DNA of 34,164 bases from a virus. Shown in pieces: positions 5,781 to 33,749 of the stretch. The notes under the pieces were generated by a model. The model did not search any database. It had not been told where the DNA came from and saw only the letters and a program-made list of their open reading frames with translations. The number at the start of each line of letters is the position of its first letter. Position 1 is the first letter of the stretch. The translations under genes and the position numbers were made by a program. Location: positions 1-34,164 of the IMG/VR virus record IMGVR_UViG_3300049491_000208. One strand, written 5' to 3'.

Positions 5781-5911
5781 TATCGTGGGGCCGTTCTTCA
5801 AGGCTGGCGCGATGCCACTGAGGAGAGCACCGGGCGCGACGCCCGTGAGTAACCTTCACTCATCCCCGTTGCGCCTACCCACGGCGCAGAACCTCGTAAG
5901 GAGGAAGCGCA
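5781..5911 (+). promoter_or_regulatory. Candidate capsid-gene promoter and structured leader
   Basis: TATCGT at 5781-5786 is a -10-like box that would start RNA near 5793. The leader then holds three hairpins in a row: CGGGCG/CGCCCG (5831-5836 with 5840-5845), TGAGT/ACTCA (5846-5850 with 5858-5862, directly abutting the first) and TGCGCC/GGCGCA (5870-5875 with 5883-5888). TAAGGAGG near 5897-5904 is the ribosome binding site for the GTG at 5912. No open frame worth calling lies in 5697-5911. No good -35 box is seen. Confidence 0.45.
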
Positions 5912-23246: not shown

Positions 23247-23285
23247 CGAGGACCCCTCCGCATCCTGCCTGTGGAGGGGTCCTCG
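23247..23285 (+). terminator. Strong terminator after the late operon
   Basis: CGAGGACCCCTCC (23247-23259) pairs perfectly with GGAGGGGTCCTCG (23273-23285) around a 13-nt loop, followed by the pyrimidine-rich CTTCTTCTCTG. This 13-bp stem separates the structural/lysis genes from the replication genes. Confidence 0.85.
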
Positions 23286-23314: not shown

Positions 23315-23339
23315 GGGGGCAGGCCCCCTGGGTTAGGAT
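23315..23339 (+). promoter_or_regulatory. Palindrome and -10 box for a leaderless early gene
   Basis: GGGGGC-AG-GCCCCC (23315-23328) is followed by TAGGAT (23334-23339), which stops exactly six bases before the ATG at 23346. That places transcription start on the A of the start codon. No ribosome binding site precedes this ATG, supporting leaderless translation. No -35 box is obvious, so an activator or phage factor might be needed. Confidence 0.45.
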
Positions 23340-23345
23340 GCGGCT

Positions 23346-23555
23346 ATGACTACCACCGACAACGCCCGTACCGCCAGCTCTCTCACGTCCGAAGACGTGG
23401 GGTGTACCCTAGACCCTAACCGCGAGATGGAGCTGCTAGAGGTGCTTGAGAGCGGTCGTCCCAACAGCGTCCAGCTCCGCGTCAATATGGACGGGAGGAC
23501 CCGCGATATCTCCATGTTCGCGGGGATGGTCCTCCAGGTGCACCGGAAGGAGTGA
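23346..23555 (+). CDS. 69-aa early protein, unknown
   Basis: First gene of the replication block. The protein is small and slightly acidic, with a Ser/Thr N terminus (1-17), a helix (REMELLEVLESG, 26-37) and a strand-rich end (VQLRVNMDGRTRDISMFAGMVLQV). No family is recognised. The ATG lacks a ribosome binding site but sits six bases from a -10-like box, so it may be translated from a leaderless transcript. It is followed by AAGGAG and the next ATG three bases after its stop. Confidence 0.6.
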   Translation: MTTTDNARTASSLTSEDVGCTLDPNREMELLEVLESGRPNSVQLRVNMDGRTRDISMFAGMVLQVHRKE

Positions 23556-23557
23556 CC

Positions 23558-23767
23558 ATGACAGACCATGACCTGAACGCTCTGGTGCTCAGCACCCTCA
23601 AGGAGCACTCCGCCGCGTACCGTGGGGAGGGCTACATCCTCTGTGCCTGTGGGTTCGAGGCTCGCGCCCGCATCCAGGGGAAGGGCTCGGGCTTCCGCTA
23701 CCGGAAGCATCTGGCCTGGGCCATGTCCCGTGAGCTCAAGGAATCCGGCTATGCCCGCGCAAGTTGA
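23558..23767 (+). CDS. 69-aa protein with a CxCG motif, unknown
   Basis: The product has an N-terminal helix (DHDLNALVLSTLKEHSAA) and a CACGFEARARI motif. The rest is basic (RIQGKGSGFRYRKHLAWAMSRELKESGY), suggesting nucleic-acid binding. The ATG at 23558 is chosen because AAGGAG (23545-23550) is seven bases upstream; a GTG at 23552 overlapping the previous stop is also possible. It overlaps the start of the VRR-NUC gene by 17 bases. The pair of cysteines could be half of a metal site. Confidence 0.55.
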   Translation: MTDHDLNALVLSTLKEHSAAYRGEGYILCACGFEARARIQGKGSGFRYRKHLAWAMSRELKESGYARAS

Positions 23768-24053
23768 GACCGAGCGAGAGGTCGAAGCGGAGCTGGTGGC
23801 GAAGGTGCGCTTGGTGGGAGGCCTGACCCTCAAGATCGCCCCCATCGTCACCGGGGCACCTGACCGGCTAGTCATCCTCCCCGGTGGATCGTTCCACCTG
23901 GTGGAGCTGAAGAACAAGGACGGGAGGTTGTCGCCTGCGCAGCACAACGTGCACCGACTACTCAAGTCGCTCGGTGCCCCGGTGACGGTACTCTGGTCGA
24001 AGGAGGAAGTCCGGCTCTGGATCAGCAAGGCTCGAGTAACTGCAACCAAGTAG
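23751..24053 (+). CDS. VRR-NUC domain nuclease
   Basis: This 100-aa protein is a minimal VRR-NUC (PD-(D/E)XK) nuclease. It has E10 or E14 in the first helix, GAPDRLVILPGG with D38, ELK with E52 and K54, and Q64 in the following helix. Stand-alone VRR-NUC proteins are common in phage replication modules and cut branched DNA or flaps. The gene overlaps the previous one and ends just before the palindrome at 24050 that precedes the helicase. Its length is at the short end but complete for the family. Confidence 0.88.
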   Translation: MPAQVETEREVEAELVAKVRLVGGLTLKIAPIVTGAPDRLVILPGGSFHLVELKNKDGRLSPAQHNVHRLLKSLGAPVTVLWSKEEVRLWISKARVTATK

Positions 24054-24067
24054 CCCAGATGGGCTAC
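24050..24067 (+). promoter_or_regulatory. Palindrome ahead of the helicase gene
   Basis: GTAGCCCA-GA-TGGGCTAC has 8-base arms and a two-base centre; as RNA it can form a 7-bp stem with an AGAU tetraloop. It ends 18 bases before the preferred TTG start, and AACAGAAGGAG lies between. It overlaps the stop of the nuclease gene and would also cover the rejected ATG at 24059. Confidence 0.65.
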
Positions 24068-24085
24068 CAACAGAAGGAGAAAGTG

Positions 24086-25414
24086 TTGAAGCTCCACGGA
24101 TACCAGCAGGTGGCCAAGGTCCATCTGAGAAGCCACCCCCGGGCAGCCCTGTTCCTTGACATGGGCCTCGGAAAGACTGCTGCAACCCTGTCCGCTCTAC
24201 AGGCCGAGCATCTACCGGTCCTCGTCATCGCCCCCAAGCGTGTCGCGGAGACAGTCTGGGACCGAGAGGCAACGCTCTGGCGGCCTGATCTCACCGTGGC
24301 CGTAGCCGCAGGCTACCCATCGCAGCGGCAGGAGGCACTGCTCTCAGGCGCGGACGTTGTGGTCCTGGGCCGTGACAACATCAAGGACGTTCTGAAGCAC
24401 CCTGTCCGGTGGAACACCCTCGTCCTCGACGAGCTGAGCGGCTTCAAGAACCGCGGAAGCCAGCGCTGGAAGGAGGCTGTCCGCATCATCCGTCAGCTCG
24501 GGGTGACGAACGTCTGGGGGCTCACAGGGACCCCTGCACCCAACGGGCTGATGGACCTCTGGTCTCAGATCTACCTGCTTGATGAGGGGGCGCGGCTGGG
24601 CAAGACCCTGACAGCCTTCCGTGGCAGGTACTTCATCCCCGGGCGTCAGCTTCGCAGCGGGGTCATCACCGAGTGGCTCCTTCGGACCGGCTGCGACGAG
24701 ACCATCCATGCGAAGCTCGAGGACATCTGCCTGTCCATGTCGGCAGAGGGTCGCCTCGAGCTGCCGGAGGTCTCGTACAACCAGGTCAACGTGAGGCTCC
24801 CGTCGGACAGCCGGAAGGTGTACGACGACCTCCGCAAGCGGATGATCGCCGAGTGGAAGGCGGGGGTCATCTCGGTGCAGGACGCGGCGACCCTCAGTGG
24901 CAAGCTGTCTCAGGTTTCTGCGGGCTTCGTTTACGACGGTGACCTGATCAGTGGGCCCAGGGAGACCTACCAGGTCCTGCACTCCGAGAAGATGAACGCT
25001 GTCCAGGAGATCATCGATGGCACCGGCTCCCCGGTGCTGGTGTTCTACCGATTCCGGGCCGAGCGGGAGCTGCTCGAGAAGGCGATCAGCAAGGCCAAGC
25101 ACATCTCCGAGCCGGGGATCATCGACCAGTGGAACGCTGGCGAGGTCCCTGTGCTGCTGGCTCACCCGGCGAGTGCTGGGCATGGGCTCAACCTCCAGTC
25201 GGGTGGCCACACTATCGTATGGACGTCCATGCCGTGGTCGCTGGAGGAATGGGAGCAGGGCAACAAGAGGCTGCACAGGCAGGGTCAGAAGAACCCGGTC
25301 ATCATCCACACCGTGGAGGCTACCGGGACCATAGACGAGATCATCTCTGACCGTCTTGCTGGAAAGCAGGACGTGCAGAATGCCCTGCTGGATCACTTGG
25401 AGTCCATACTGTGA
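24086..25414 (+). CDS. SNF2/superfamily 2 DNA helicase
   Basis: This 442-aa ATPase has motif I DMGLGKT (residues 25-31), motif II DELS (115-118) and motif III LTGTPAPN (146-153). The C-terminal RecA lobe has LVFYRFRAE, GHGLNLQSGG and motif VI NKRLHRQGQ, as in SNF2-type helicases of phages. It probably remodels forks or D-loops during phage replication and recombination. AAGGAG at 24074-24079 is six bases before the TTG at 24086. An in-frame ATG at 24059 lies inside the palindrome without ribosome binding site and is less likely, though it would add nine residues. It is followed by the FDXHR gene with GTGA overlap. Confidence 0.9.
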   Translation: MKLHGYQQVAKVHLRSHPRAALFLDMGLGKTAATLSALQAEHLPVLVIAPKRVAETVWDREATLWRPDLTVAVAAGYPSQRQEALLSGADVVVLGRDNIKDVLKHPVRWNTLVLDELSGFKNRGSQRWKEAVRIIRQLGVTNVWGLTGTPAPNGLMDLWSQIYLLDEGARLGKTLTAFRGRYFIPGRQLRSGVITEWLLRTGCDETIHAKLEDICLSMSAEGRLELPEVSYNQVNVRLPSDSRKVYDDLRKRMIAEWKAGVISVQDAATLSGKLSQVSAGFVYDGDLISGPRETYQVLHSEKMNAVQEIIDGTGSPVLVFYRFRAERELLEKAISKAKHISEPGIIDQWNAGEVPVLLAHPASAGHGLNLQSGGHTIVWTSMPWSLEEWEQGNKRLHRQGQKNPVIIHTVEATGTIDEIISDRLAGKQDVQNALLDHLESIL

Positions 25415-25647
25415 AAAGCAACTGGTGTCAGTGTCGGGGACAGTGGGCGGGGGGCGGTCATTGCCGGGTATGCTGTCACACCTTCAGCTCCGACACGGCG
25501 TTCGACGCTCACCGGAAGGGACCCCACGATGGTGGACGCTACTGCATCGACATCGAGGCCACCCCCGGGTGGCGCAACACCGATCGGGGCTGGACCAACG
25601 CGAGTCCGATGACGGAACGCGTGAAGCAGATTCGGAGAGGACAGTAG
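25411..25647 (+). CDS. FDXHR-type zinc-binding protein
   Basis: This 78-aa protein has Cys6, Cys8, Cys18, Cys21/22 and Cys45 with the signature FDAHR (31-35). It ends in a Trp/Asp segment (GWRNTDRGWT) as in the FDXHR family of small actinophage zinc proteins. Their role is not known, but they lie near replication genes. It overlaps the helicase stop (GTGA) and is directly followed by the primase-polymerase ATG, so the three are one translational unit. Confidence 0.8.
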   Translation: MKSNWCQCRGQWAGGGHCRVCCHTFSSDTAFDAHRKGPHDGGRYCIDIEATPGWRNTDRGWTNASPMTERVKQIRRGQ

Positions 25648-27855
25648 ATGGAACTGACGCAAGAGGAGCAGGACGCCCTCGACTACGCGAGGGTGCTGAT
25701 CGAGAACGGCGTACCGCTCTTCCTGGCCCAGCCACACCTGGTTGGCCGTTCCTGGAATGCAACCGGAGGACATGGCGGGACAGGGTACTGGTTCCCACCA
25801 GAGTGGGAGAAGTCCCCTCCGGACCTGGCCGTTCTCGATCGCTGGGAGCCAGGGGTGGCCTTGTGCGCGGTCATGGGCCATGGCATCGACCTGATCGACG
25901 TGGACCCTCGGAGCGGTGGCGATGACAGCTATGCAGCCATGCTCAAGGAGGGGGTCATCCCCGAGGTCTTCGGCAAGCAGGCCACAGTCTCCGGGGGCTT
26001 CCACCTGTTCGTGGCCAGCATGGGTGTTAGGTCGCTGGACAAGGTTCGACCTGGGGTGGACGTCAAGGCTGGGGTGGACGGGGTCGGCCATGGCTTCGCC
26101 TTCCTGGCGCCGACCAAGAAGACCTCCAAGATCACGGAGCTGGTGGGGAGCTATGAGTGGACAGAGCCGCCCAACCTTGACCGTCTGATCCTTGGGCTCC
26201 CACCCGGCCTGGCACTGGCCCAGGAGATCAACGACCGCCACAACTCGAGCATCGGCACCTCCATCGTTGGGTACGACGGGGCCTCGTACGAGGACCTCCC
26301 GTCCCACCACAAGCAGGCGGCGGATGAGTACGTCATCGAGCTCGCCAACAGCTGGCGTGACAAGCTGACGGACGCTGCCAACTGGCCGGAGGGTAAGACA
26401 GACGAGTGGGGGCGTGGCTGGGAGGCCCTTTCGAGGGACGTCGCCTGGTCGTTCGCCAAGACTGCAGCTGCCCCATGGTCTGGCTTGAACGCGGAGCAGG
26501 CCGGAGAGCTGATCGAGTCCATCACCCCGGAGGAGATGTGGGAGGACCCCCAGTGCTCTGGCAAGTGGTACCCAGGGCTCGTCTCGAAGGCTTCCGAGGG
26601 TGTCGTGGCGGAGCCGCCTTGGCCCGTCTTCCCACCACTGGACGACAGCTTCTGGGGCCTCACCCCGGTGCTGTCCCACATCCGTCAAGCTGCCTACTCC
26701 CGGTTCCTGTCACCACCCTCTCTGCTGGCTTACGTGCTTGCACGGGTGCTTGTGGAAGTACCAGTCGGGTCGTGCTACCTCCCACCGACCGTCGGAGCTC
26801 GTGCCACGCTCAACCTCGGCTTCGCTCTTGTGGGGTCGTCTGGTGGCGGCAAGTCCACCCTGATGGAGACCAGCCGTGAGCTCATCGGGATGGTTGGGCT
26901 GGACCAGAAGGACCTCGAGAAGTCGATCGGGTCGGGGGAGGGTCTCGTCCAGTCCTTCCTCGAGAAGGCCACAGCGAGCCAGAGGCTCCAGGTCATACTA
27001 GACCCCCGTCGGCTCTTCACTTCGGACGAGATCGGCCAGCTGCTCGCGACTTCGGACCGGGTGGGGTCTACCCTGACCTCGGTCCTCAGGTCTGCTCTCA
27101 CCGGAAGCATCATGGGGCAGGCCAACGCCGACGCCTCCAGGGACCGCCATGTGCCGTCCGGGACCTACAGGTTCATCTTCGTCGCAGGCATCCAGCCCTC
27201 CCACGCTGATCGGCTGCTGCGAGAGGCCGACGTCGGCACGCCCCAGCGGTTGCTGTGGGTCGACTCGTATGACCCCGACTACCCTGACGAGAACCTCGAG
27301 TGGCCTGGTTCCCTGGAATGGGAGATACCCACAGGGCTCCCGGTAGAGATGGAGTACCCAGAGCACATCAAGGTCGAGGTACGGGCAGCCCGTCTGCTCC
27401 AGGTCCGTGGGAAGGGCAACCCTCTTGAGAGCCACGCGATGCTGACCCAGCTGAAGGTGGCCGCCGCGCTCGCGCTCCTCCACCTGGAGTACGAGATCAC
27501 CGACAGGTGGTGGGCTATGGCTGGGACTCTGTGCCGGGAGTCGATCGAGCTCCAGGAGCGGCTGAGCAAGGACGCCCAGGAGCGGGCATACAGGTCGATG
27601 TTCGTGGAGGCCTCCAAGAAGTCGCGCGTCCAGGACGAGATCGAAGAGAGCAAGGTCAAGAGGGTGGAGAAGAACATCATGGCGAAGCTCGAGAGGTCCG
27701 CGGAGGAGTGGCATTCTGTGCATTCCCTCCGGCCTCGAGCAGACGCCCGTCAGTACTTCGAGGAGGCGCTGGAGGCCCTGGTGGGGGAGGGGCTGGTCGA
27801 AGTCGAGGACTATGATCACAAGGGTGCCACAGCCCGGAGGGTGAGGCTAGCATGA
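25648..27855 (+). CDS. Primase-polymerase fused to an ATPase domain
   Basis: This 735-aa protein combines two functions. The N-terminal primase-polymerase domain (about 1-190) shows the catalytic pair D84/D86 in LIDVDPRSGG, the SGGFHLF motif with H119, and VDVKAGVDG with D138. The central and C-terminal part (about 330-735) is a RecA/DUF3987-like ATPase with Walker A GSSGGGKST (396-404) and SDEIG (459-463). A long charged coiled-coil tail includes SKVKRVEKNIMAKLERS. It would prime and unwind phage DNA. GAGAGGA precedes the ATG. The next gene overlaps its stop (ATGA). Confidence 0.88.
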   Translation: MELTQEEQDALDYARVLIENGVPLFLAQPHLVGRSWNATGGHGGTGYWFPPEWEKSPPDLAVLDRWEPGVALCAVMGHGIDLIDVDPRSGGDDSYAAMLKEGVIPEVFGKQATVSGGFHLFVASMGVRSLDKVRPGVDVKAGVDGVGHGFAFLAPTKKTSKITELVGSYEWTEPPNLDRLILGLPPGLALAQEINDRHNSSIGTSIVGYDGASYEDLPSHHKQAADEYVIELANSWRDKLTDAANWPEGKTDEWGRGWEALSRDVAWSFAKTAAAPWSGLNAEQAGELIESITPEEMWEDPQCSGKWYPGLVSKASEGVVAEPPWPVFPPLDDSFWGLTPVLSHIRQAAYSRFLSPPSLLAYVLARVLVEVPVGSCYLPPTVGARATLNLGFALVGSSGGGKSTLMETSRELIGMVGLDQKDLEKSIGSGEGLVQSFLEKATASQRLQVILDPRRLFTSDEIGQLLATSDRVGSTLTSVLRSALTGSIMGQANADASRDRHVPSGTYRFIFVAGIQPSHADRLLREADVGTPQRLLWVDSYDPDYPDENLEWPGSLEWEIPTGLPVEMEYPEHIKVEVRAARLLQVRGKGNPLESHAMLTQLKVAAALALLHLEYEITDRWWAMAGTLCRESIELQERLSKDAQERAYRSMFVEASKKSRVQDEIEESKVKRVEKNIMAKLERSAEEWHSVHSLRPRADARQYFEEALEALVGEGLVEVEDYDHKGATARRVRLA

Positions 27856-28052
27856 CGACCAGGAAGGACACGGAAAGGCTCCTTCGGGATGCGAAGAGAG
27901 CTGGTGCTGTCGTCAGCATCACAGGGAAGAACCACTACCGGGTAACCAACCCGACGACGGGCATGGCGTGCACGATGTCCTACAGCCCCTCGTGCCACCA
28001 CGCCCTCGCCAAGCAGAAGAAGGACCTCAGGAGGATCGGGATCGAGCTTTAG
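27852..28052 (+). CDS. HicA-like small protein
   Basis: This 66-aa protein has a helix-strand-strand-helix pattern: RLLRDAKRAGAVVSITGKNHYRV... gives a first helix, two strands with a His near residue 28, and a final basic helix (KQKKDLRRIGIEL). This resembles the double-stranded RNA-binding fold of HicA/YcfA mRNA interferases. The key His would be H28 (KNHYRV). No HicB antitoxin-like gene is next to it, so it may act as a nucleic-acid binding accessory rather than a toxin. The ATG overlaps the primase stop (ATGA). Confidence 0.6.
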   Translation: MTTRKDTERLLRDAKRAGAVVSITGKNHYRVTNPTTGMACTMSYSPSCHHALAKQKKDLRRIGIEL

Positions 28053-28089
28053 TCCCCGAGACAGAGAAGAGCAGGCGCAAGACCCCCAC

Positions 28090-28109
28090 GGGGCCTACAG
28101 TAGGTCCCC
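28090..28109 (+). promoter_or_regulatory. Palindrome ahead of a short replication operon
   Basis: GGGGCCTACAGTAGGTCCCC is an inverted repeat centred on a single A with one G-T mismatch. It ends 21 bases before the GTG at 28131, with AGAAGGAG between. TACAGT within it is a possible -10 box, so a bound protein could block transcription. Confidence 0.55.
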
Positions 28110-28130
28110 CAACCAAAGAAGGAGCACCAC

Positions 28131-28532
28131 GTGCACATCACGATCGAGATCGACGCTGCCCCCGAGCAGCTGCTGGAAGAGCTGGCATCGCTGCGCGACC
28201 TGCTGGACAAGATCAACGGTCCTGTCCCGCTGACCGCGCCGACCGAGGCACCGGCTGAGACCCCCGCTCCCAAGGCGAAGACGCCTCCTCCGCCCCCGGC
28301 ACCCAAGGCCAAGGCCAAGGCTGCCGAGCCTGCTCCGGAGCCGGAGGAGGCCGCTGAGGAGGCTGGCGAGGACGACGCCGTCGCACGGGCCATTGCCCTG
28401 GCCACGGACCTCGTGTCCAAGAAGAAGACGGCGGAGATCAAGACCGCCATGGAGTCTGTCGGCGCCACCAAGGTCAGCGACATGACCGCGGAGCAGGCCC
28501 TCGGCTTCATTGCGGCGGTCGAGCTGCTGTGA
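28131..28532 (+). CDS. Early protein with Pro/Ala linker, unknown
   Basis: This 133-aa protein has an N-terminal strand and helix (HITIEIDAAPEQLLEELASLRDLLDKI), a long Pro/Ala/Glu/Lys-rich linker (about 33-83), and a C-terminal helical domain (AIALATDLVSKKKTAEIKTAM...ALGFIAAVELL). The two folded ends joined by a flexible charged linker suggest an adaptor that brings partners together. It is coupled (GTGA) to the DUF2800 nuclease, so a recombination partner role is plausible. AGAAGGAG lies ahead of its GTG start. Confidence 0.65.
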   Translation: MHITIEIDAAPEQLLEELASLRDLLDKINGPVPLTAPTEAPAETPAPKAKTPPPPPAPKAKAKAAEPAPEPEEAAEEAGEDDAVARAIALATDLVSKKKTAEIKTAMESVGATKVSDMTAEQALGFIAAVELL

Positions 28533-29695
28533 CCGAGCACGCTCCCCTCTCTCCGAGCGCAGCCGAGCGCTGGATCCAGTGTCCAGCCTCGGTGCGAGCA
28601 TCGCAGGAGCTCGAGGTTCGGGAAGGTGTGAGCGAGGTGTCCTCCGTCTACGCGGCGGAGGGCACCACTGCTCATTCTCTGGCTGAGCTACTCGCCCGGT
28701 GCGAGATACTCGAGAATGGCGATGTCCTCGATCAGGAGCTTGAACACTGGCGGGACGTCCACCGACTGGACGACGACGTCTTCCGTGAGATGTTCAAGCA
28801 CGCCGAGGGCTATGTCGAGTACCTCATCGAGCGGATGTCCCTGCACCCCTACACCCAGCTATTGCTGGAGCAGCGCGTCGACACCGGGCTGCCCTCCTGC
28901 TGGGGTACGGGCGACGCCATCCTGGTCTCCCCGACCCACGTCGAGATCGTCGACTACAAGTACGGCAGCGGTGTCCGAGTGAGCGCCTGGAAGAACCCCC
29001 AGATCATGCTGTATGGGATCGGCGCTCTGGAGAACTACGGTGATGTGCTGGGGACCCCGGAGGTCGTCTACTGCACGATCTACCAGCCCCGCATCGACAA
29101 CGTCAGCACCTACGAGATCTCAGCCAAGGACCTCCGGGCGTGGCGGGACTCCCTCCTTCCGGTCGTCGAGGAGGCTCGTGGACCTCACGCACGGTTCGGC
29201 CCGAGCGAGAGCGCGTGTAGGTGGTGCCCCGTCGCTGGCCAGTGCCGTGCCCAGCTCGAGTGGGCTCTGGCGCTGGACTTCGGCCAGCCGCCGGACCTCC
29301 TGTCCGTCGAGGAGCTCTCGGAGGCGCTGACCCGCATCCCGGCGATCCGGAACTGGTGCGACGCGGTCCAGTCGGTATCGCTGGACCTCGTGTACTCCAA
29401 GGACACTCCCATCCCCGGCTGGAAGGTCGTGCTCTCCGGGGGAAAGAGGTACATCGCCGACCCCACCGAGGCCATCCGCATCCTCACCGAGGAGAACGGC
29501 TTCGAGCTGGGGCAGGTGTCCACACAGAAGATCCTCGGCATCGGAGATCTCGAGAAGATGCTGGGTAAGGCTGGCTTCGCTGAGTCGCTGGGAAGCGTCG
29601 TGGCGAAGTCGGAGGGCAAGCCGTCCCTCGTACCAGAGGCCGACTCACGCCCACCGATTGACAGCAACACCGGGGCTGCGGAGGACTTCGCGTAG
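28529..29695 (+). CDS. DUF2800 Cas4-like PD-(D/E)XK nuclease
   Basis: This 388-aa protein is a Cas4/AddB-type nuclease. It has the nuclease motif GTGDAILV (D129) followed by VDYK (D142, K144), a His in GTTAH (H49) and Q158. An iron-sulfur cluster is indicated by C18 with C230-x2-C233-x5-C239. DUF2800 proteins occur beside DUF2815 and DNA polymerase in many phage replication modules and probably process DNA ends for recombination. The C-terminal 140 residues are helical with an acidic end. The GTG start overlaps the previous gene. Confidence 0.9.
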   Translation: MTEHAPLSPSAAERWIQCPASVRASQELEVREGVSEVSSVYAAEGTTAHSLAELLARCEILENGDVLDQELEHWRDVHRLDDDVFREMFKHAEGYVEYLIERMSLHPYTQLLLEQRVDTGLPSCWGTGDAILVSPTHVEIVDYKYGSGVRVSAWKNPQIMLYGIGALENYGDVLGTPEVVYCTIYQPRIDNVSTYEISAKDLRAWRDSLLPVVEEARGPHARFGPSESACRWCPVAGQCRAQLEWALALDFGQPPDLLSVEELSEALTRIPAIRNWCDAVQSVSLDLVYSKDTPIPGWKVVLSGGKRYIADPTEAIRILTEENGFELGQVSTQKILGIGDLEKMLGKAGFAESLGSVVAKSEGKPSLVPEADSRPPIDSNTGAAEDFA

Positions 29696-29710
29696 CCCCA
29701 CCCACCAGAC

Positions 29711-29801
29711 GGTGGAGAGGACCCCGTGGGCTCTGACTAGCCATCCTCTCCTCCACCCCCGGCGGAGCACCGTGCTCCCCTTACACGGCGCTCCGTCGGG
29801 G
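29711..29801 (+). terminator. Compound hairpins after the DUF2800 gene
   Basis: One hairpin can form between GGTGGAGAGGA (29711-29721) and 29744-29757. A stronger one joins CCCCGGCGGAGC (29757-29768) with GCTCCGTCGGGG (29790-29801; one G-U pair). Inside its loop, CCGTG/CACGG (29770-29774 with 29784-29788) extends the stem after a single A-C mismatch. It likely terminates the upstream operon. The pyrimidine-rich TCCCTTCT follows. Confidence 0.75.
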
Positions 29802-29808
29802 TCCCTTC

Positions 29809-29814
29809 TAGCAT
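29809..29814 (+). promoter_or_regulatory. Candidate -10 box for the lysozyme-like gene
   Basis: TAGCAT lies nine bases before the ATG at 29824 and immediately after the terminator hairpin. Transcription would start near 29821, with almost no leader. A GGAG at 29816-29819 may serve as a short ribosome binding site if RNA starts slightly upstream. Confidence 0.35.
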
Positions 29815-29823
29815 TGGAGCAAC

Positions 29824-30249
29824 ATGTTCGAACCGTTGATCGTCGCCGCAGCCCTTGCTGTACCATCCGACACCGACCGCGAGTGGGCCGTTCAGAGGCC
29901 TAACCGGGGCGGTGCCACTCGTTATCTGGACAGCAACGTCCCGGAGGTCTGGGAGGGTGTGCCGGCGGAGGCCCGTCGCATCTGGCTCTGCATCCGGAAC
30001 CACGAGTCCCGCCACAGCGGTCACTACGACGCGGAGAACCCCTCCAGCAGCGCCAGCGGAGCTGGCCAGTGGATCGATGGAACGTGGGACGGCATCAAGA
30101 AGTGGGTCAAGGTGAACGGCGAGTTCGTCGCCAAGAAGTACGACGAGGCCAAGGACGCTCCTGCCTGGGTGCAGGACGCAGCCTTCGTCCACGTATGGAA
30201 GCATGACGGGCTGTCCATGTGGCACGGAACGTGGTGTCCAGGAACATGA
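29824..30249 (+). CDS. Lysozyme/Rpf-like muralytic protein
   Basis: This 141-aa protein has a short hydrophobic N terminus (EPLIVAAALAVPS) that may be a signal or anchor. A lytic-transglycosylase or Rpf-like core follows, with NHES (catalytic Glu probably E61), NPSSSASGAGQW (about 72-83) and a second Trp segment (GLSMWHGTWCPG). Enzymes with this pattern cut peptidoglycan glycan chains. It is unusual that the gene lies in the replication block, not with the amidase and holin. It overlaps a 32-aa membrane peptide (ATGA). It may help DNA entry, host wall remodelling or superinfection exclusion. Confidence 0.75.
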   Translation: MFEPLIVAAALAVPSDTDREWAVQRPNRGGATRYLDSNVPEVWEGVPAEARRIWLCIRNHESRHSGHYDAENPSSSASGAGQWIDGTWDGIKKWVKVNGEFVAKKYDEAKDAPAWVQDAAFVHVWKHDGLSMWHGTWCPGT

Positions 30250-30344
30250 GCTGGGGGTCGGTCGCCACGTTCCTCTGGGGGACAGTCGCGGTCCTGCTGG
30301 ACGTGGTGACCGGCCCAGTACGTCGTTTCTACCGAGACAGATAG
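30246..30344 (+). CDS. 32-aa single-span membrane peptide
   Basis: The ATG overlaps the stop of the lysozyme-like gene (ATGA). The peptide has one hydrophobic segment (about residues 5-23, SVATFLWGTVAVLLDVV) and a basic tail (RRFYRDR), giving a likely N-out/C-in single helix. There is no ribosome binding site of its own other than coupling. Such tiny peptides next to cell-wall enzymes can be holin-like or modulators. A GC hairpin follows ten bases after its stop. Confidence 0.6.
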   Translation: MSWGSVATFLWGTVAVLLDVVTGPVRRFYRDR

Positions 30345-30353
30345 CAACACGCG

Positions 30354-30369
30354 TCCCCCGGCTGGGGGA
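30354..30369 (+). terminator. Short GC hairpin after the membrane peptide gene
   Basis: TCCCCC (30354-30359) pairs with GGGGGA (30364-30369) around GGCT. No T tract is seen, so this may be a weak terminator or 3' end block. Confidence 0.5.
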
Positions 30370-30372
30370 GCG

Positions 30373-30386
30373 TAGGGTAGACACCC
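30373..30386 (+). promoter_or_regulatory. -10-like box and tetraloop hairpin before the MazG-like gene
   Basis: TAGGGT (30373-30378) overlaps GGGT-AGAC-ACCC (30375-30386), which ends 17 bases before the ATG at 30404, with AAGAAGGAGCA between. This is a weaker example of the start-associated palindrome seen before other early genes. Confidence 0.35.
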
Positions 30387-30403
30387 CACAAGAAGGAGCA
30401 CTC

Positions 30404-30757
30404 ATGACAACGAACGACTGGAAGGCGGGGACCGTCGAGGTCCTCGGCCTGGTGATGCGGGAGCGGGAGCATCAGGTGGACCGCTACGGCACCAACCAGG
30501 ATCTGAAGGACGGCACCGGGCCGGACGTACTCTGGCTCGGCAACACCCATGCATACCTGTCGGCTCTGCCAGCGGAGAGCATCGAGCTCGTCCTCAGACG
30601 AGAGTACGAGCGGCACGACCAGCCCACGTGGATGCACCTGGTCCGCGAGGAGATAGCAGAGGCCTTCAAGGAGTCCGACCCCGAGCGGCTCGAGGAGGAG
30701 CTAATCCAGGTGGCCGCTCTGTGTGTCTCCTGGGTGGAGAAACTCCGCATTAGGTAG
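30404..30757 (+). CDS. MazG-like nucleotide pyrophosphohydrolase
   Basis: This 117-aa protein is helical, with two acidic helices at the C-terminal half: REEIAEAFKESDP and ERLEEELIQVAALCVSWVEKL. The spacing of EExxE and a second ExxxQ/E group recalls the metal-binding helices of all-alpha NTP pyrophosphohydrolases (MazG), though the usual ExxD of the second helix appears as ELIQ. It may cleave host or modified nucleotides, or ppGpp-like alarmones. AGAAGGAG lies before the ATG. The upstream in-frame start at 30203 is rejected because it overlaps the lysozyme-like gene. Confidence 0.65.
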   Translation: MTTNDWKAGTVEVLGLVMREREHQVDRYGTNQDLKDGTGPDVLWLGNTHAYLSALPAESIELVLRREYERHDQPTWMHLVREEIAEAFKESDPERLEEELIQVAALCVSWVEKLRIR

Positions 30758-30773
30758 TTAGCTGTGTCCGTAG

Positions 30774-30805
30774 TAGCATGGTACCCACCGGGACCAAATG
30801 GTCCC
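30774..30805 (+). promoter_or_regulatory. -10-like box and palindrome before DUF932
   Basis: TAGCAT (30774-30779) predicts RNA start near 30786. GGGACCA-AA-TGGTCCC (30790-30805) then has 7-base arms; as RNA it gives a 6-bp stem with an AAAU tetraloop. It ends 18 bases before the ATG at 30824, with AACAGAAGGAG between, the same arrangement and central CCARATGG core as before the helicase gene. Confidence 0.6.
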
Positions 30806-30823
30806 CTAACAGAAGGAGCAATC

Positions 30824-31813
30824 ATGTCTCATGAGCTTGACACCACCGACGGCATCACGAGCTTCGTGTCCGCCAACGGACTTGACGCCTGGCACAAGCT
30901 GGGCCAGACCCGCGAGGGAGCCCTCACCGCTGAGGAGATCATGGAGCACGGCTACCTCGCCGACTGGGACGTCCGCAAGGCTCCGGTCTACGCTGTAGAG
31001 AACGGCAAGACCATCGAGATCCCGGGGCGGTCCGCCATCATCCGGAACAACCCCATCAACAAGAACGTCGAGGCCCTCGGGGTCGTCGGCCCTCTGTACC
31101 ACGTGGTGCAGAACGAGGCGCACGCTGAGTTCCTCAACACCCTCGTCGAGGAGTCCGGCGCTCACTTCGAGACCGCTGGTTCTCTGTACGGGGGTCGCCA
31201 GGTCTTCATCACCATGAAGATGCCTGGCCACGTGTTGATCGGCGGGGTCGACCGGGTCGACACCTACATCGCCGCGCTCAACGCACACGACGGCTCCAAG
31301 GCTTTCACGCTGATGGCGACCCCGGTCCGCATCGTCTGCGCCAACACGCTCAACATGGCGTTCGGCAACCGCTCCCACATCCTGTCTCGCCGGCACACCT
31401 CTGGTGTCCTGAAGGCTGTGGAGCAGGCACGCGAGGCTCTGGAGCTGACCTTCAACTACCTGGAGGACTTCCAGGCGGAGGCCAACCAGCTCCTCGACAC
31501 CGAGCTGACCCAGGTCCGCTTCGAGGAGATCATCGCGGCAGCCTTCGGCCCCGACGAGGATGCCTCCGCTGCAACCATCACCCGGGCAGGGGCCAAGATG
31601 GACAAGATGGTGGAGCTGTTCGCCGATGCCGGCACCCAGGCAGAGGTCCGCAACACCGCGTGGGCAGGCCTCAACGCCATCACGGAGTGGTACGACCACT
31701 TCAGCGCTGTACGGGGCGACGAGCCCGACGTCAGCCGTGCTCTCAACGCTGCTCTCGACCCCACCAGCAAGAACGAGGCGCTCCGCCTCATCCGTGCGGC
31801 GGTGTCCGCATGA
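30824..31813 (+). CDS. DUF932 family protein
   Basis: This 329-aa protein resembles the DUF932/phage-plasmid-like family, which is common near replication and recombination genes. Motifs include the N-terminal GLDAWHKLG, YHVVQNEAHAEF, a strand with VFITMKMPG, and TPVRIVCANTLNMAFG, which is typical of the family. The C-terminal third is helical. A DNA recombination or single-strand binding role has been suggested, but no activity can be read from the sequence. The ATG is supported by AGAAGGAG; the next gene overlaps its stop (ATGA). Confidence 0.85.
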   Translation: MSHELDTTDGITSFVSANGLDAWHKLGQTREGALTAEEIMEHGYLADWDVRKAPVYAVENGKTIEIPGRSAIIRNNPINKNVEALGVVGPLYHVVQNEAHAEFLNTLVEESGAHFETAGSLYGGRQVFITMKMPGHVLIGGVDRVDTYIAALNAHDGSKAFTLMATPVRIVCANTLNMAFGNRSHILSRRHTSGVLKAVEQAREALELTFNYLEDFQAEANQLLDTELTQVRFEEIIAAAFGPDEDASAATITRAGAKMDKMVELFADAGTQAEVRNTAWAGLNAITEWYDHFSAVRGDEPDVSRALNAALDPTSKNEALRLIRAAVSA

Positions 31814-32136
31814 ACGGCGGCCACATCCTCCTCGGCATCCTGCTCGTCGCAGCCATCGCCGAGATCGTGTACACGCAGGGCTGCCTCCGGTCTAACCGGA
31901 GGCAGCTTGCTGCCGTTCGGAGGGAGCGTGACCGTGCCCTCTCCCAGGTTGGGATCAAGCCCAACGTCCTGCCGATCCACCTCAGCCCTGTCACCTGCGA
32001 GTCCTGTGGGAACGACGACGCCACCTTCCACGTCTGCACCGACTGCATGATGATCATCCCGGACCCAGTGGAGAACTACCGGAGCGAGGCCCACGACCGG
32101 GCGATGCGGAACCACCCTGCTGGGAAGAAGCTGTGA
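31810..32136 (+). CDS. Membrane-anchored zinc-ribbon protein
   Basis: This 108-aa protein has one membrane helix (about residues 5-22, HILLGILLVAAIAEIVY). A basic coiled-coil stretch follows (RRQLAAVRRERDRALSQ), then a zinc ribbon C63-x2-C66-x9-C76-x2-C79 (CESCG...CTDC). The basic side and the positive-inside rule place the ribbon in the cytoplasm. A small DNA- or protein-binding ribbon fixed to the membrane is unusual in the replication block; it might tether phage DNA or proteins there. It is co-translated with DUF932 and the DUF4406 protein (both overlap). Confidence 0.7.
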   Translation: MNGGHILLGILLVAAIAEIVYTQGCLRSNRRQLAAVRRERDRALSQVGIKPNVLPIHLSPVTCESCGNDDATFHVCTDCMMIIPDPVENYRSEAHDRAMRNHPAGKKL

Positions 32137-32570
32137 CCGCCCAGGGCTGCTGGTGCGGTGGGCAGGTTACCACCGAGGAAGGCCTCTCGGTGTGCCTCGA
32201 CAGCGCATTCCACGACCCCCATGCTACGGGTAGGCCCACGGCAATCCGACGCCTCTACGTTGCTGGACCAATGTCGGGCTACCCGCTGAACAACTACCCG
32301 GAGTTCCACAGGGTGTCGGACCTCCTCCGGGTGGCAGGCTACGAGGCTGTCAACCCGGCTGAGACCGGAGTGCCAGACAAGGGGAGGGTCCACTACACCG
32401 ACCTGCTCCGGCAGGACCTCATCGACATGATGGGCTGCGACGGCGTGGCGGTCATCGACCTCTGGTGGGAGAGCCAGGGGGCCATGAACGAGGTCCACGT
32501 GGCTGGCATTCTCAAGATGCCGGTCCACCACTACGACACCTGGATCCGGCTCGCTTCCCAGGACTCGTAA
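32133..32570 (+). CDS. DUF4406 nucleoside deoxyribosyltransferase-like protein
   Basis: The core of this 145-aa protein (residues about 40-135) matches DUF4406: LYVAGPMSGYP at the strand-loop start, YPEFHRVSDLLRVAGYEAVNPAE, then DMMGCDGVAVIDLWWESQGAMNE with the acidic residue near the expected nucleophile position. These proteins are related to nucleoside 2-deoxyribosyltransferases and may alter nucleotide pools. A short N-terminal Cys knuckle (C6, C8, C21, H27) is added ahead of the core. The GTG overlaps the preceding stop. Confidence 0.78.
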   Translation: MTAQGCWCGGQVTTEEGLSVCLDSAFHDPHATGRPTAIRRLYVAGPMSGYPLNNYPEFHRVSDLLRVAGYEAVNPAETGVPDKGRVHYTDLLRQDLIDMMGCDGVAVIDLWWESQGAMNEVHVAGILKMPVHHYDTWIRLASQDS

Positions 32571-32660
32571 CAACAAGCGCACCACTGCTCGGCGCAGTAG
32601 GCTGGGCGGGCACCACACGAAACACACCGACACACCGAACCCACGAAAGGGACAAGCATC
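32571..32660 (+). promoter_or_regulatory. Intergenic stretch before DUF2815
   Basis: This 90-base gap holds TAGGCT (32599-32604), a weak -10-like box, a CA-rich unstructured leader and GAAAGGGA before the ATG at 32661. It has no clear palindrome, unlike other early starts. Confidence 0.25.
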
Positions 32661-33209
32661 ATGGCAACAACCAAGGTAGTGACTGGCAAGGTCCGTCTGT
32701 CGTACGTGCACGTCTTCGAGCCGTACAGCAATCAGGAGGATCAGGAGGCGCGGTACAGCTGCACCATCCTGATCCCGAAGACCGACAAGAAGACGCTCAA
32801 GGCGATCGAGGAGGCCATTGGGGCCGCCAAGGAAGCTGGCAAGAGCCGCGTCTTCGAGGGACGGATCCCCAGCGGTCTGAAGAGCACGCTGCACGATGGT
32901 GACGAGGAGGCAGACCTCGAGCGCAACCCGGAGTACGCTGGCCACATGTACATGGCCCTCAACTCCAAGCAGAAGCCGGGTGTCATCGACCTGGACATGA
33001 ACCCCATCCTGGACACGAGCGAGGTCTACTCGGGCTGCTACGCCCGTGTGTCCATGGGTGCGTTCGCCTACAACACCAAGGGGAACAAGGGCATCTCGTT
33101 CGGCCTCAACCACGTCCAGAAGGTCGCCGACGGCGACTTCCTGGGTGGGCGCACTCGCGCTGAGGACGACTTCGGCCCGGTCACGCTCGACGAGGAAGAC
33201 CTCATCTAG
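32661..33209 (+). CDS. DUF2815 single-strand DNA-binding-like protein
   Basis: This 182-aa protein fits DUF2815, a phage OB-fold-like family that sits with DUF2800 and DNA polymerase. Recognisable segments are VRLSYVHVFEPYS, YSCTILIPKTDK and LKAIEEAIGAAKEAG. Further on are the stretch with ECAGH-like EYAGHMYMALNS and SGCYARVSMGAFAYN, and an acidic C-terminal tail (LDEEDLI) typical of ssDNA-binding proteins that recruit partners. It probably coats single strands during replication. GAAAGGGA lies before the ATG. A structured leader follows its stop. Confidence 0.85.
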   Translation: MATTKVVTGKVRLSYVHVFEPYSNQEDQEARYSCTILIPKTDKKTLKAIEEAIGAAKEAGKSRVFEGRIPSGLKSTLHDGDEEADLERNPEYAGHMYMALNSKQKPGVIDLDMNPILDTSEVYSGCYARVSMGAFAYNTKGNKGISFGLNHVQKVADGDFLGGRTRAEDDFGPVTLDEEDLI

Positions 33210-33217
33210 CTGACCGG

Positions 33218-33338
33218 TATCATGTAGTTGCACCCCCCCGGCTGCGTCGAGTCGCGGTTGCGCTGGCTGTCAGTCCTTCCGGCCAGAAGAGCGCCACGAA
33301 CGCCAGCCGGGGGGTGCGCCTCTAAGAAGGAGCACCCC
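33218..33338 (+). promoter_or_regulatory. Promoter and structured leader before the second HNH gene
   Basis: TATCAT (33218-33223) predicts RNA start at G33230. That is exactly the first base of a long stem: GCACCCCCCCGGCTG (33230-33244) with CAGCCGGGGGGTGC (33304-33317), 14 pairs and one bulged C. The 59-nt loop can hold inner hairpins such as CTGGC/GCCAG. GGGGTGC (33311-33317) can pair instead with GCACCCC (33332-33338), which overlaps the end of the AAGGAG ribosome binding site. Confidence 0.55.
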
Positions 33339-33749
33339 TTGAAGACGTACGAGCAGATGCACAGCGGCCTGCACTGGGCCAGGGGCCGAGCCTCTGACCA
33401 CCAGTGTGTGGACTGCGGAGGAGAGGCCAAAGACTGGGCCTACCTCCATACCGGAGAGCAGCTTGTCAGCCCCAGCGGGCAGACCTACAGCGAGAACTTC
33501 GACGACTACGCTCCGATGTGCAGGAGCTGTCACCGCAGGTTCGACATGGCACGCAACCCCATCTGGCGCAACAAGCTGGCCAACCACATCCGTGGAGCTG
33601 CTGAAGACCCAGAGGCTTTCGAAGCGGAGCGCAAGAGGCGCACACACCTGGCAGCTCTTCGCAGGACCTGTTCCTGCGGGCTCGTGAGCAACCCAGGTGC
33701 TGTGGCGTACCACGCCAAGGTCCAAGGTCACACCGTGGTGGCGTCATGA
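33339..33749 (+). CDS. HNH endonuclease-like protein with extra zinc motif
   Basis: This 136-aa protein resembles phage HNH proteins with the pattern C23-x2-C26, a WAY strand instead of the classical DH step, YSENFDDYAPM, then C61-x2-C64-H65. A C-terminal CSC...H...H group (C111, C113, H125, H131) looks like an additional metal finger. It lies between DUF2815 and DNA polymerase, a typical place for such insertions. AAGGAG (33327-33332) is six bases before the TTG, which is preferred over the earlier in-frame TTG at 33228 within the leader. Nuclease activity is uncertain because the first HNH motif is atypical. Confidence 0.75.
   Translation: MKTYEQMHSGLHWARGRASDHQCVDCGGEAKDWAYLHTGEQLVSPSGQTYSENFDDYAPMCRSCHRRFDMARNPIWRNKLANHIRGAAEDPEAFEAERKRRTHLAALRRTCSCGLVSNPGAVAYHAKVQGHTVVAS

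Follow-up and report, generated by a model that had tools for sequence, protein, structure and literature searches.

Short GC-rich hairpins before gene starts in an actinophage and their counterparts in related phages

The leader of phage T7 gene 10 carries a stem-loop near the 5′ end of its mRNA, upstream of the Shine–Dalgarno (SD) sequence, with the start codon following soon after. In Cupriavidus necator, this stem-loop upstream of the SD raised protein 1.5–3 fold and also raised mRNA abundance (PMC6146998), and mRNAs of Escherichia coli and Bacillus subtilis are stabilised by 5′ hairpins (review, PMC3997798). Another kind of start-associated element is known from cluster K mycobacteriophages, whose start-associated sequence (SAS) is a conserved 13-mer, GGGATAGGAGCCC, and whose extended form (ESAS) has sequence-conserved arms of 17 bp with little support for pairing as RNA (PMC3203893). 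Here we analyse short inverted repeats before gene starts in IMG/VR virus record IMGVR_UViG_3300049491_000208 (34,164 bases, GC 65%; "the window" denotes this whole stretch), which comes from an actinobacterial virus (actinophage). In a subset of the genes of this phage and of related actinophages, short GC-rich hairpins end 13–30 nucleotides (nt) before the start codon, directly upstream of the SD, and in an orthologous set the arms change yet stay paired. That the hairpin is kept in place while its letters change suggests a selected structure of the mRNA leader.

Hairpins before gene starts in the window

An earlier note on this DNA had grouped five inverted repeats before early genes as one recurring element. 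All five are present, and they are listed here as sites 1–5 together with a further hairpin that the note did not include. Per-site P values come from 2000 dinucleotide shuffles of each leader; hairpin energies are approximate, from a simplified nearest-neighbour score, as are start codons, from a simple purpose-written gene caller.

Site 1, 23315–23328, + strand: GGGGG-CAGG-CCCCC; P = 0.043, fold z = 0.09
Site 2, 24050–24067, + strand: GTAGCCC-AGAT-GGGCTAC, 15 nt before GTG 24083 (18 nt before TTG 24086) of a SNF2-type helicase gene; P = 0.0005–0.005, varying with the start codon used, fold z = −3.3
Site 3, 28090–28109, + strand: GGGGCCTA-CAG-TAGGTCCCC, with one G–U pair, 21 nt before GTG 28131; P = 0.0025
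Site 4, 30375–30386, + strand: 4-bp GGGT-AGAC-ACCC around the −10-like TAGGGT (30373–30378); P = 0.12
Site 5, 30790–30805, + strand: GGGACC-AAAT-GGTCCC, 18 nt before the ATG of a DUF932-type gene; −9.6 kcal/mol, P = 0.0035
Further hairpin, 5869–5889, + strand: TTGCGCC-TACCCAC-GGCGCAG, 22 nt before GTG 5912 in the structural region; −9.9 kcal/mol, P = 0.005

Sites 2, 3 and 5 are real hairpins beyond chance, each surviving the shuffle comparison, and shuffled sequences as a set also give fewer hairpins at this distance. Among the 14 window leaders with an intergenic gap, 5 have a hairpin of ≤ −9 kcal/mol ending 14–26 nt before the start, vs. a mean of 0.30 after shuffling, and 0 of 200 shuffles reach 5. 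The fifth member of this set is the hairpin at 5869–5889, not site 4, which was rejected as four base pairs that match by chance around a −10 box. Site 1 is marginal. It lies upstream of a −10-like TAGGAT (23334–23339) and ATG 23346, so placed that the +1 of TAGGAT would fall on the ATG, and it sits 30 nt past a strong terminator (23247–23285), suggesting that it is probably promoter-region DNA before a leaderless promoter rather than part of a leader. The palindromes of the earlier note are thus confirmed in part: three of its five sites stand, sites 1 and 4 are not supported as members, and its interpretation is likewise partly supported.

The shared sequence fares differently from the structure. 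The note had counted AGAAGGAG as part of the element, and the motif is indeed present 3′ of sites 2, 3, 4 and 5. However, it occurs in 9 copies in the window vs. 1.2 expected, some of them at starts that have no such hairpin nearby (e.g., 21955), and it was set aside as the genome's ordinary strong SD.

SD of the DUF932-type gene, 30811–30818, + strand: AGAAGGAG, an ordinary SD of this genome

The pattern CCARATGG...AACAGAAGGAG, noted at the two strongest sites, is found in the window at sites 2 and 5 only. As a shared sequence it was rejected, since none of 81 IMG/VR hits of a related pattern has a hairpin of more than 5 bp. After the stems of sites 2, 3 and 5 come CAACAGAA, CAACCAAA and CTAACAGA, respectively, and at none of the three does a U-tract follow or the stem-loop sequester the ribosome-binding site.

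Hairpin position and changing arms in relatives

No nucleotide relatives of the window were found in INPHARED, and its primase protein, used as a query, found no relatives in IMG/VR. Its replication proteins are closest to those of Brevibacterium phage LuckyBarnes, Glutamicibacter phage Montesquieu and an uncultured phage, G001 (IMGVR_UViG_3300044476_000120). The exonuclease of G001 is 51% identical and its DUF932-type protein 59% identical to that of the window, the latter being joint-closest. Site 5 is the best-supported member, and its position is matched in orthologues by arms of other sequence.

DUF932-type gene (329 aa), 30824–31813, + strand: tblastn matches to phages and to plasmid proteins annotated DUF932; leader hairpin kept in relatives

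The earlier note took the arms to be compensatory, and in relatives they do covary, as seen in G001 and in the DUF932 leaders. In G001, one cassette stands at six gene starts and consists of GAAAGTTAGCGATCSGACTAGCG, about 14 nt, GTACGSTA, a spacer, a hairpin, CGGAACCGAAGGAACCGA and the start. One of the six copies precedes the DUF932 orthologue, exactly at the position of site 5 in the window.

G001 cassette copies: 11866 and 12926 (− strand) of L205; near 7064 of L206; near 2121, 3272 and 4511 of L207 (L numbers are our handles for the loci compared)

The flanks of the cassette are nearly invariant while the hairpins vary, with arms UGGGCC/GGCCCA, UGGGGC/GCCCCA, UGGGUC/GGCCCA (with a G–U pair) and GGGCCC/GGGCCC, and with loops similar among copies. 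Pairing is kept in 30/30 cells and both sides are changed in 3/6 pairs, a count that is supportive rather than conclusive, as the hairpin segments were cut by eye and comprise five distinct sequences. The pairing pattern was equalled by 6/500 column shuffles, and slid controls gave far lower values. The constant DNA element of the cassette is the upstream 23 bp and not the hairpin. This nearly invariant box, GAAAGTTAGCGATCSGACTAGCG, is possibly a site for a phage-specific activator or sigma factor; a search for it in other phages gave three further IMG/VR matches, all without hairpin and SD.

DUF932 leaders were gathered from INPHARED and IMG/VR, and 49 non-redundant GC-rich leaders were tested. 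Hairpins at 18–27 nt occur in Mycobacterium phage Yinz (GGCGGG/CCCGCC), Gordonia phages Mariokart and Ligma, Arthrobacter phages EastWest and BarretLemon (GUUCG/CGAAC), and many uncultured phages (UGCCGGGC/GCCCGGCG, CCGCCC/GGGCGG, GGCAAUC/GAUUGCC and others). A hairpin of ≤ −9 kcal/mol ending 13–30 nt before the start is present in 14 of the 49, vs. 1.0 (maximum 3) after shuffling. When chimeras were made by exchanging the 5′ parts between leaders, which retains local composition and start-site context, only 3.3 hairpins (maximum 7) were left of the 14 natural ones. The loss of hairpins in these composition-preserving chimeras shows that, for pairing, the two arms need to come from the same leader. 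The shuffle and chimera tests, which are free of register, were used in place of RNAalifold, since arms unrelated in sequence do not align. The evidence from covariation is direct for site 5, and for sites 2 and 3 it would hold by analogy. Among low-GC DUF932 relatives, no hairpin of such stability was seen (1/27 at −7 kcal/mol). We also note a plasmid DUF932 gene, in L326 (Streptomyces plasmid pFRL6) near 19995, where a promoter-like TATAGT is followed by GGCGGGGCGTCGCCCGCC 20 nt before the annotated start.

The place of the hairpin in the transcript can be estimated from promoter-like sequences.

Putative −10 box, 30774–30779, + strand: TAGCAT, ending 10 nt before the site 5 hairpin; transcription would start near 30786

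The window's own −35 is poor. Comparable promoters are seen in L277 and L282 (TTGACA-17-TAACTT, ending 11 nt before the hairpin), L267 (TTGACA-16-TATTGT, 14 nt before), L275 and L278 (TTGACT-18-TACTGT, 13 nt before) and G001 (TATCGT, 9 nt before). With the usual 6–8 nt from the −10 box to the start of transcription, the hairpin would begin at about +1 to +8, suggesting that the mRNA of site 5 and of several DUF932 orthologue leaders starts a few nt before the hairpin. In the leader of the single-stranded DNA-binding protein (SSB) gene, the window, G001 and LuckyBarnes share one −10 (TAGGCT) and lack a start-proximal hairpin, showing that the hairpin does not simply accompany every early promoter. 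In LuckyBarnes (L005), a box, TGAGTTATAGTT(A)ATTACATCA, is repeated ahead of several early genes, in the leaders at 31885, 36569, 42951, 45278 and 45676, where the short hairpin is absent; it is probably that phage's own early promoter.

The architecture extends beyond one gene. A counterpart of site 3 is found in the exonuclease operon leaders of Montesquieu, LuckyBarnes and G001. The strongest leader hairpins of 98 loci from phages and prophages cluster 15–29 nt ahead of the start codon whatever the GC class, in numbers well above those of shuffled sequences. Among GC-rich phages, a hairpin lies in this interval in 28/125 leaders vs. 3.2 expected. LuckyBarnes has start-proximal hairpins in 3/18 leaders and Montesquieu in 4/24, vs. 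about 0.3 in shuffles. A control set of actinobacterial plasmids gave 4/41 leaders vs. 1.5 shuffled, a number too small to settle phage-specificity. This layout of the leader is therefore widespread and most marked in GC-rich phages, and it may not be phage-specific.

What the hairpins may do

Taken as a whole, the hairpins are best explained as 5′-leader stem-loops of the T7 gene 10 or ompA type, a reading to which we give a probability of about 0.5. Its structural part, i.e., a selected leader hairpin, is very probable, while the stabilising function, argued by analogy, is tentative and falls at or slightly short of even odds. The leader would run from the 5′ end through the hairpin, a short unpaired A/C-rich spacer and the SD to the start codon, with the stem-loop just outside the ribosome footprint. 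As RNA, the stem-loop may keep end-sensing RNases (RNase E, RNase J, pyrophosphohydrolase) away from the 5′ end and raise expression. Sites 2 and 3 would be a like structure between genes, where it could shield transcripts that are processed or start internally.

Several observations weigh against this explanation. In Mycobacterium smegmatis, esxB 5′ untranslated region (UTR) hairpins did not stabilise a reporter and their deletion left the half-life unshortened, and genome-wide 5′ UTR structure was uncorrelated with half-life (PMC11728522). The hairpin is lacking in L242, which has a 59% identical protein, and in L246, and LuckyBarnes and Montesquieu show no counterpart of site 2 at the corresponding position in front of their helicase genes. 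No consensus pairs emerged when a plain MAFFT alignment of the leaders was folded with RNAalifold, as expected for arms unrelated in sequence, and this result offers no independent support. A consensus promoter scan of the early region found none. Such hairpins also precede 5/81 leaders of a Firmicute host chromosome, so the feature is not exclusive to phages. SD accessibility is clearly raised at site 2 only, and the hairpin as an insulator of the ribosome-binding site is accordingly a doubtful proposal. A bolder version of the leader stem-loop seems rather improbable to us, namely that actinophages and some actinobacterial plasmids use a dedicated, position-fixed, sequence-free early-mRNA leader hairpin giving an advantage that host mRNAs do not get from 5′ structure; as examples within that same conjecture, the hairpin might guard against an RNase that infection remodels, or might influence RNA polymerase at promoter escape or antitermination.

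The hairpins, at least at sites 2 and 3, could instead be intercistronic elements of the upstream gene, which we regard as possible but unlikely. They would then act as partial terminators, or in stabilising or processing the 3′ end, and so adjust the ratio between neighbouring genes. Site 2 is probably intercistronic, with no convincing promoter, and its hairpin overlaps the stop codon of the preceding gene; several hairpins of LuckyBarnes and Montesquieu lie 10–25 nt past a stop codon without a promoter; and a U-tract follows about half (11/23) of the start-proximal hairpins of low-GC phages, which look like partial terminators. However, a U-tract is present at no window site and at 2/24 in GC-rich phages, and at site 5 a terminator would be pointless, as it would stand at +1 to +10 from a promoter. 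Moreover, the spacing between the hairpin's 3′ end and the downstream start is kept, whereas that to the preceding stop ranges from 3 to > 300 nt. Pure chance in GC-rich DNA, with repeats picked by eye, holds for site 4 and perhaps for site 1, and 3% of positions drawn at random from the window have an equally good hairpin in the same slot. For sites 2, 3 and 5, chance is disfavoured by the set-wise and per-site shuffles and by the position conserved in orthologues, and as a general account it is highly improbable.

The earlier note had offered an operator, an RNA stabiliser or a translation switch; an element of the RNA leader, of whatever function, is favoured by the data over the operator. 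A palindrome bound as DNA by a dimeric repressor or activator would fit the proximity to promoters, and the cluster K ESAS has been so interpreted (PMC3203893). It is nevertheless very improbable here because the arms differ between sites and copies; in addition, G–U pairs occur at site 3 and in G001 copy 6, and the constant DNA of G001 lies outside the hairpin. A translational switch, with initiation regulated by a phage or host protein bound to the hairpin or by the hairpin's competition with another structure, would suit the fixed place beside the SD, the purine-rich tendency of the window loops (AGAT, AAAT) and the similarity of the loops among the G001 copies. However, arms and loops are unconserved across genes and orthologues, which makes a specific protein site unlikely, and the SD is free at sites 2, 3 and 5, leaving such a switch a slim prospect.

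Gene context and described systems

The other assigned genes of the early region are as follows, and the gene that starts at its end is probably the DNA polymerase, judging from position in relatives.

SNF2-type helicase, 24083–25414
Primase/helicase, 25648–27855
Exonuclease, 28529–29695; the first gene of its operon starts at GTG 28131
Gp2.5-like SSB, 32661–33209

Two further stretches of the window have structures of other kinds. At 29700–29824, two large inverted repeats (GGTGGAGAGGA/TCCTCTCCTCCACC and CCCCGGCGGAGC/GCTCCGTCGGGG) are followed by TAGCAT (29809–29814) and ATG 29824, which we read as a terminator region and a probable near-leaderless promoter. In the leader of the gene at 33339 (33229–33339), GCACCCCCCCGGCTG (33231–33245) can form a long hairpin with CAGCCGGGGGGTGC (33305–33318), or GGGGTGC (33312–33318) can pair with GCACCCC (33331–33337), with the SD in the loop; this is possibly a two-state leader. 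Terminator-like hairpins, often with a U-tract, stand right after the SSB gene in LuckyBarnes and Montesquieu (L005 and L006, between the SSB and DNA polymerase genes) and in Firmicute prophages (L186–L198), as if lowering expression of the next gene.

No Rfam family matched the window above its gathering score, the sole sub-threshold hit being Guanidine-II at 33158–33204, inside a gene, and no description of the hairpin in actinophages was found in the open-access literature, in a search that was not exhaustive. Leader hairpins were known from single genes of phages and hosts. What appears new is a hairpin that holds its position ahead of an orthologous gene in actinophages of Mycobacterium, Gordonia and Arthrobacter and in uncultured ones, even as its sequence is exchanged, a pattern found neither in Rfam nor in the literature searched. 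The 5′ leader stem-loop is thus already known, and its conserved, sequence-free, gene-linked form across actinophages appears undescribed. It poses a conflict, as 5′ hairpins do not measurably stabilise M. smegmatis host mRNAs and yet selection appears to retain them on phage mRNAs. For annotators, the hairpin is a structural cue to start sites and promoters, and it supplies natural expression leaders for actinobacterial hosts.

The likeness to cluster K start-associated sequences drawn by the earlier note did not hold. Both are repeated, start-associated elements of non-structural genes, and the ESAS inverted repeats likewise lie upstream of an SD-bearing box. However, the SAS has 0 matches in the window at ≤ 2 mismatches (10 at 3 mismatches vs. 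17 expected), and the window arms are 6–8 bp and differ between sites, with compensation among the G001 arms, whereas the long ESAS arms are conserved and do not covary as RNA; membership was therefore rejected. Intrinsic terminators of phage operons resemble the hairpins in lying between cotranscribed genes, 15–29 nt before the next start in low-GC phages, but often carry the U-tract that the window sites lack, and a + strand terminator scan listed 23247–23285 only and none of the window hairpin sites. The resemblance to ompA, papA and B. subtilis aprE is a stem-loop at or near the mRNA 5′ end, which is protective there (review, PMC3997798); those are host genes with measured protection, whereas in the phages the likeness is one of sequence layout. 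The T7 gene 10 leader shares the stem-loop layout in a phage mRNA leader; it serves one late gene behind a T7 RNA polymerase promoter, whereas the hairpins described here stand before several actinophage genes, behind host-type promoters, and share no sequence.

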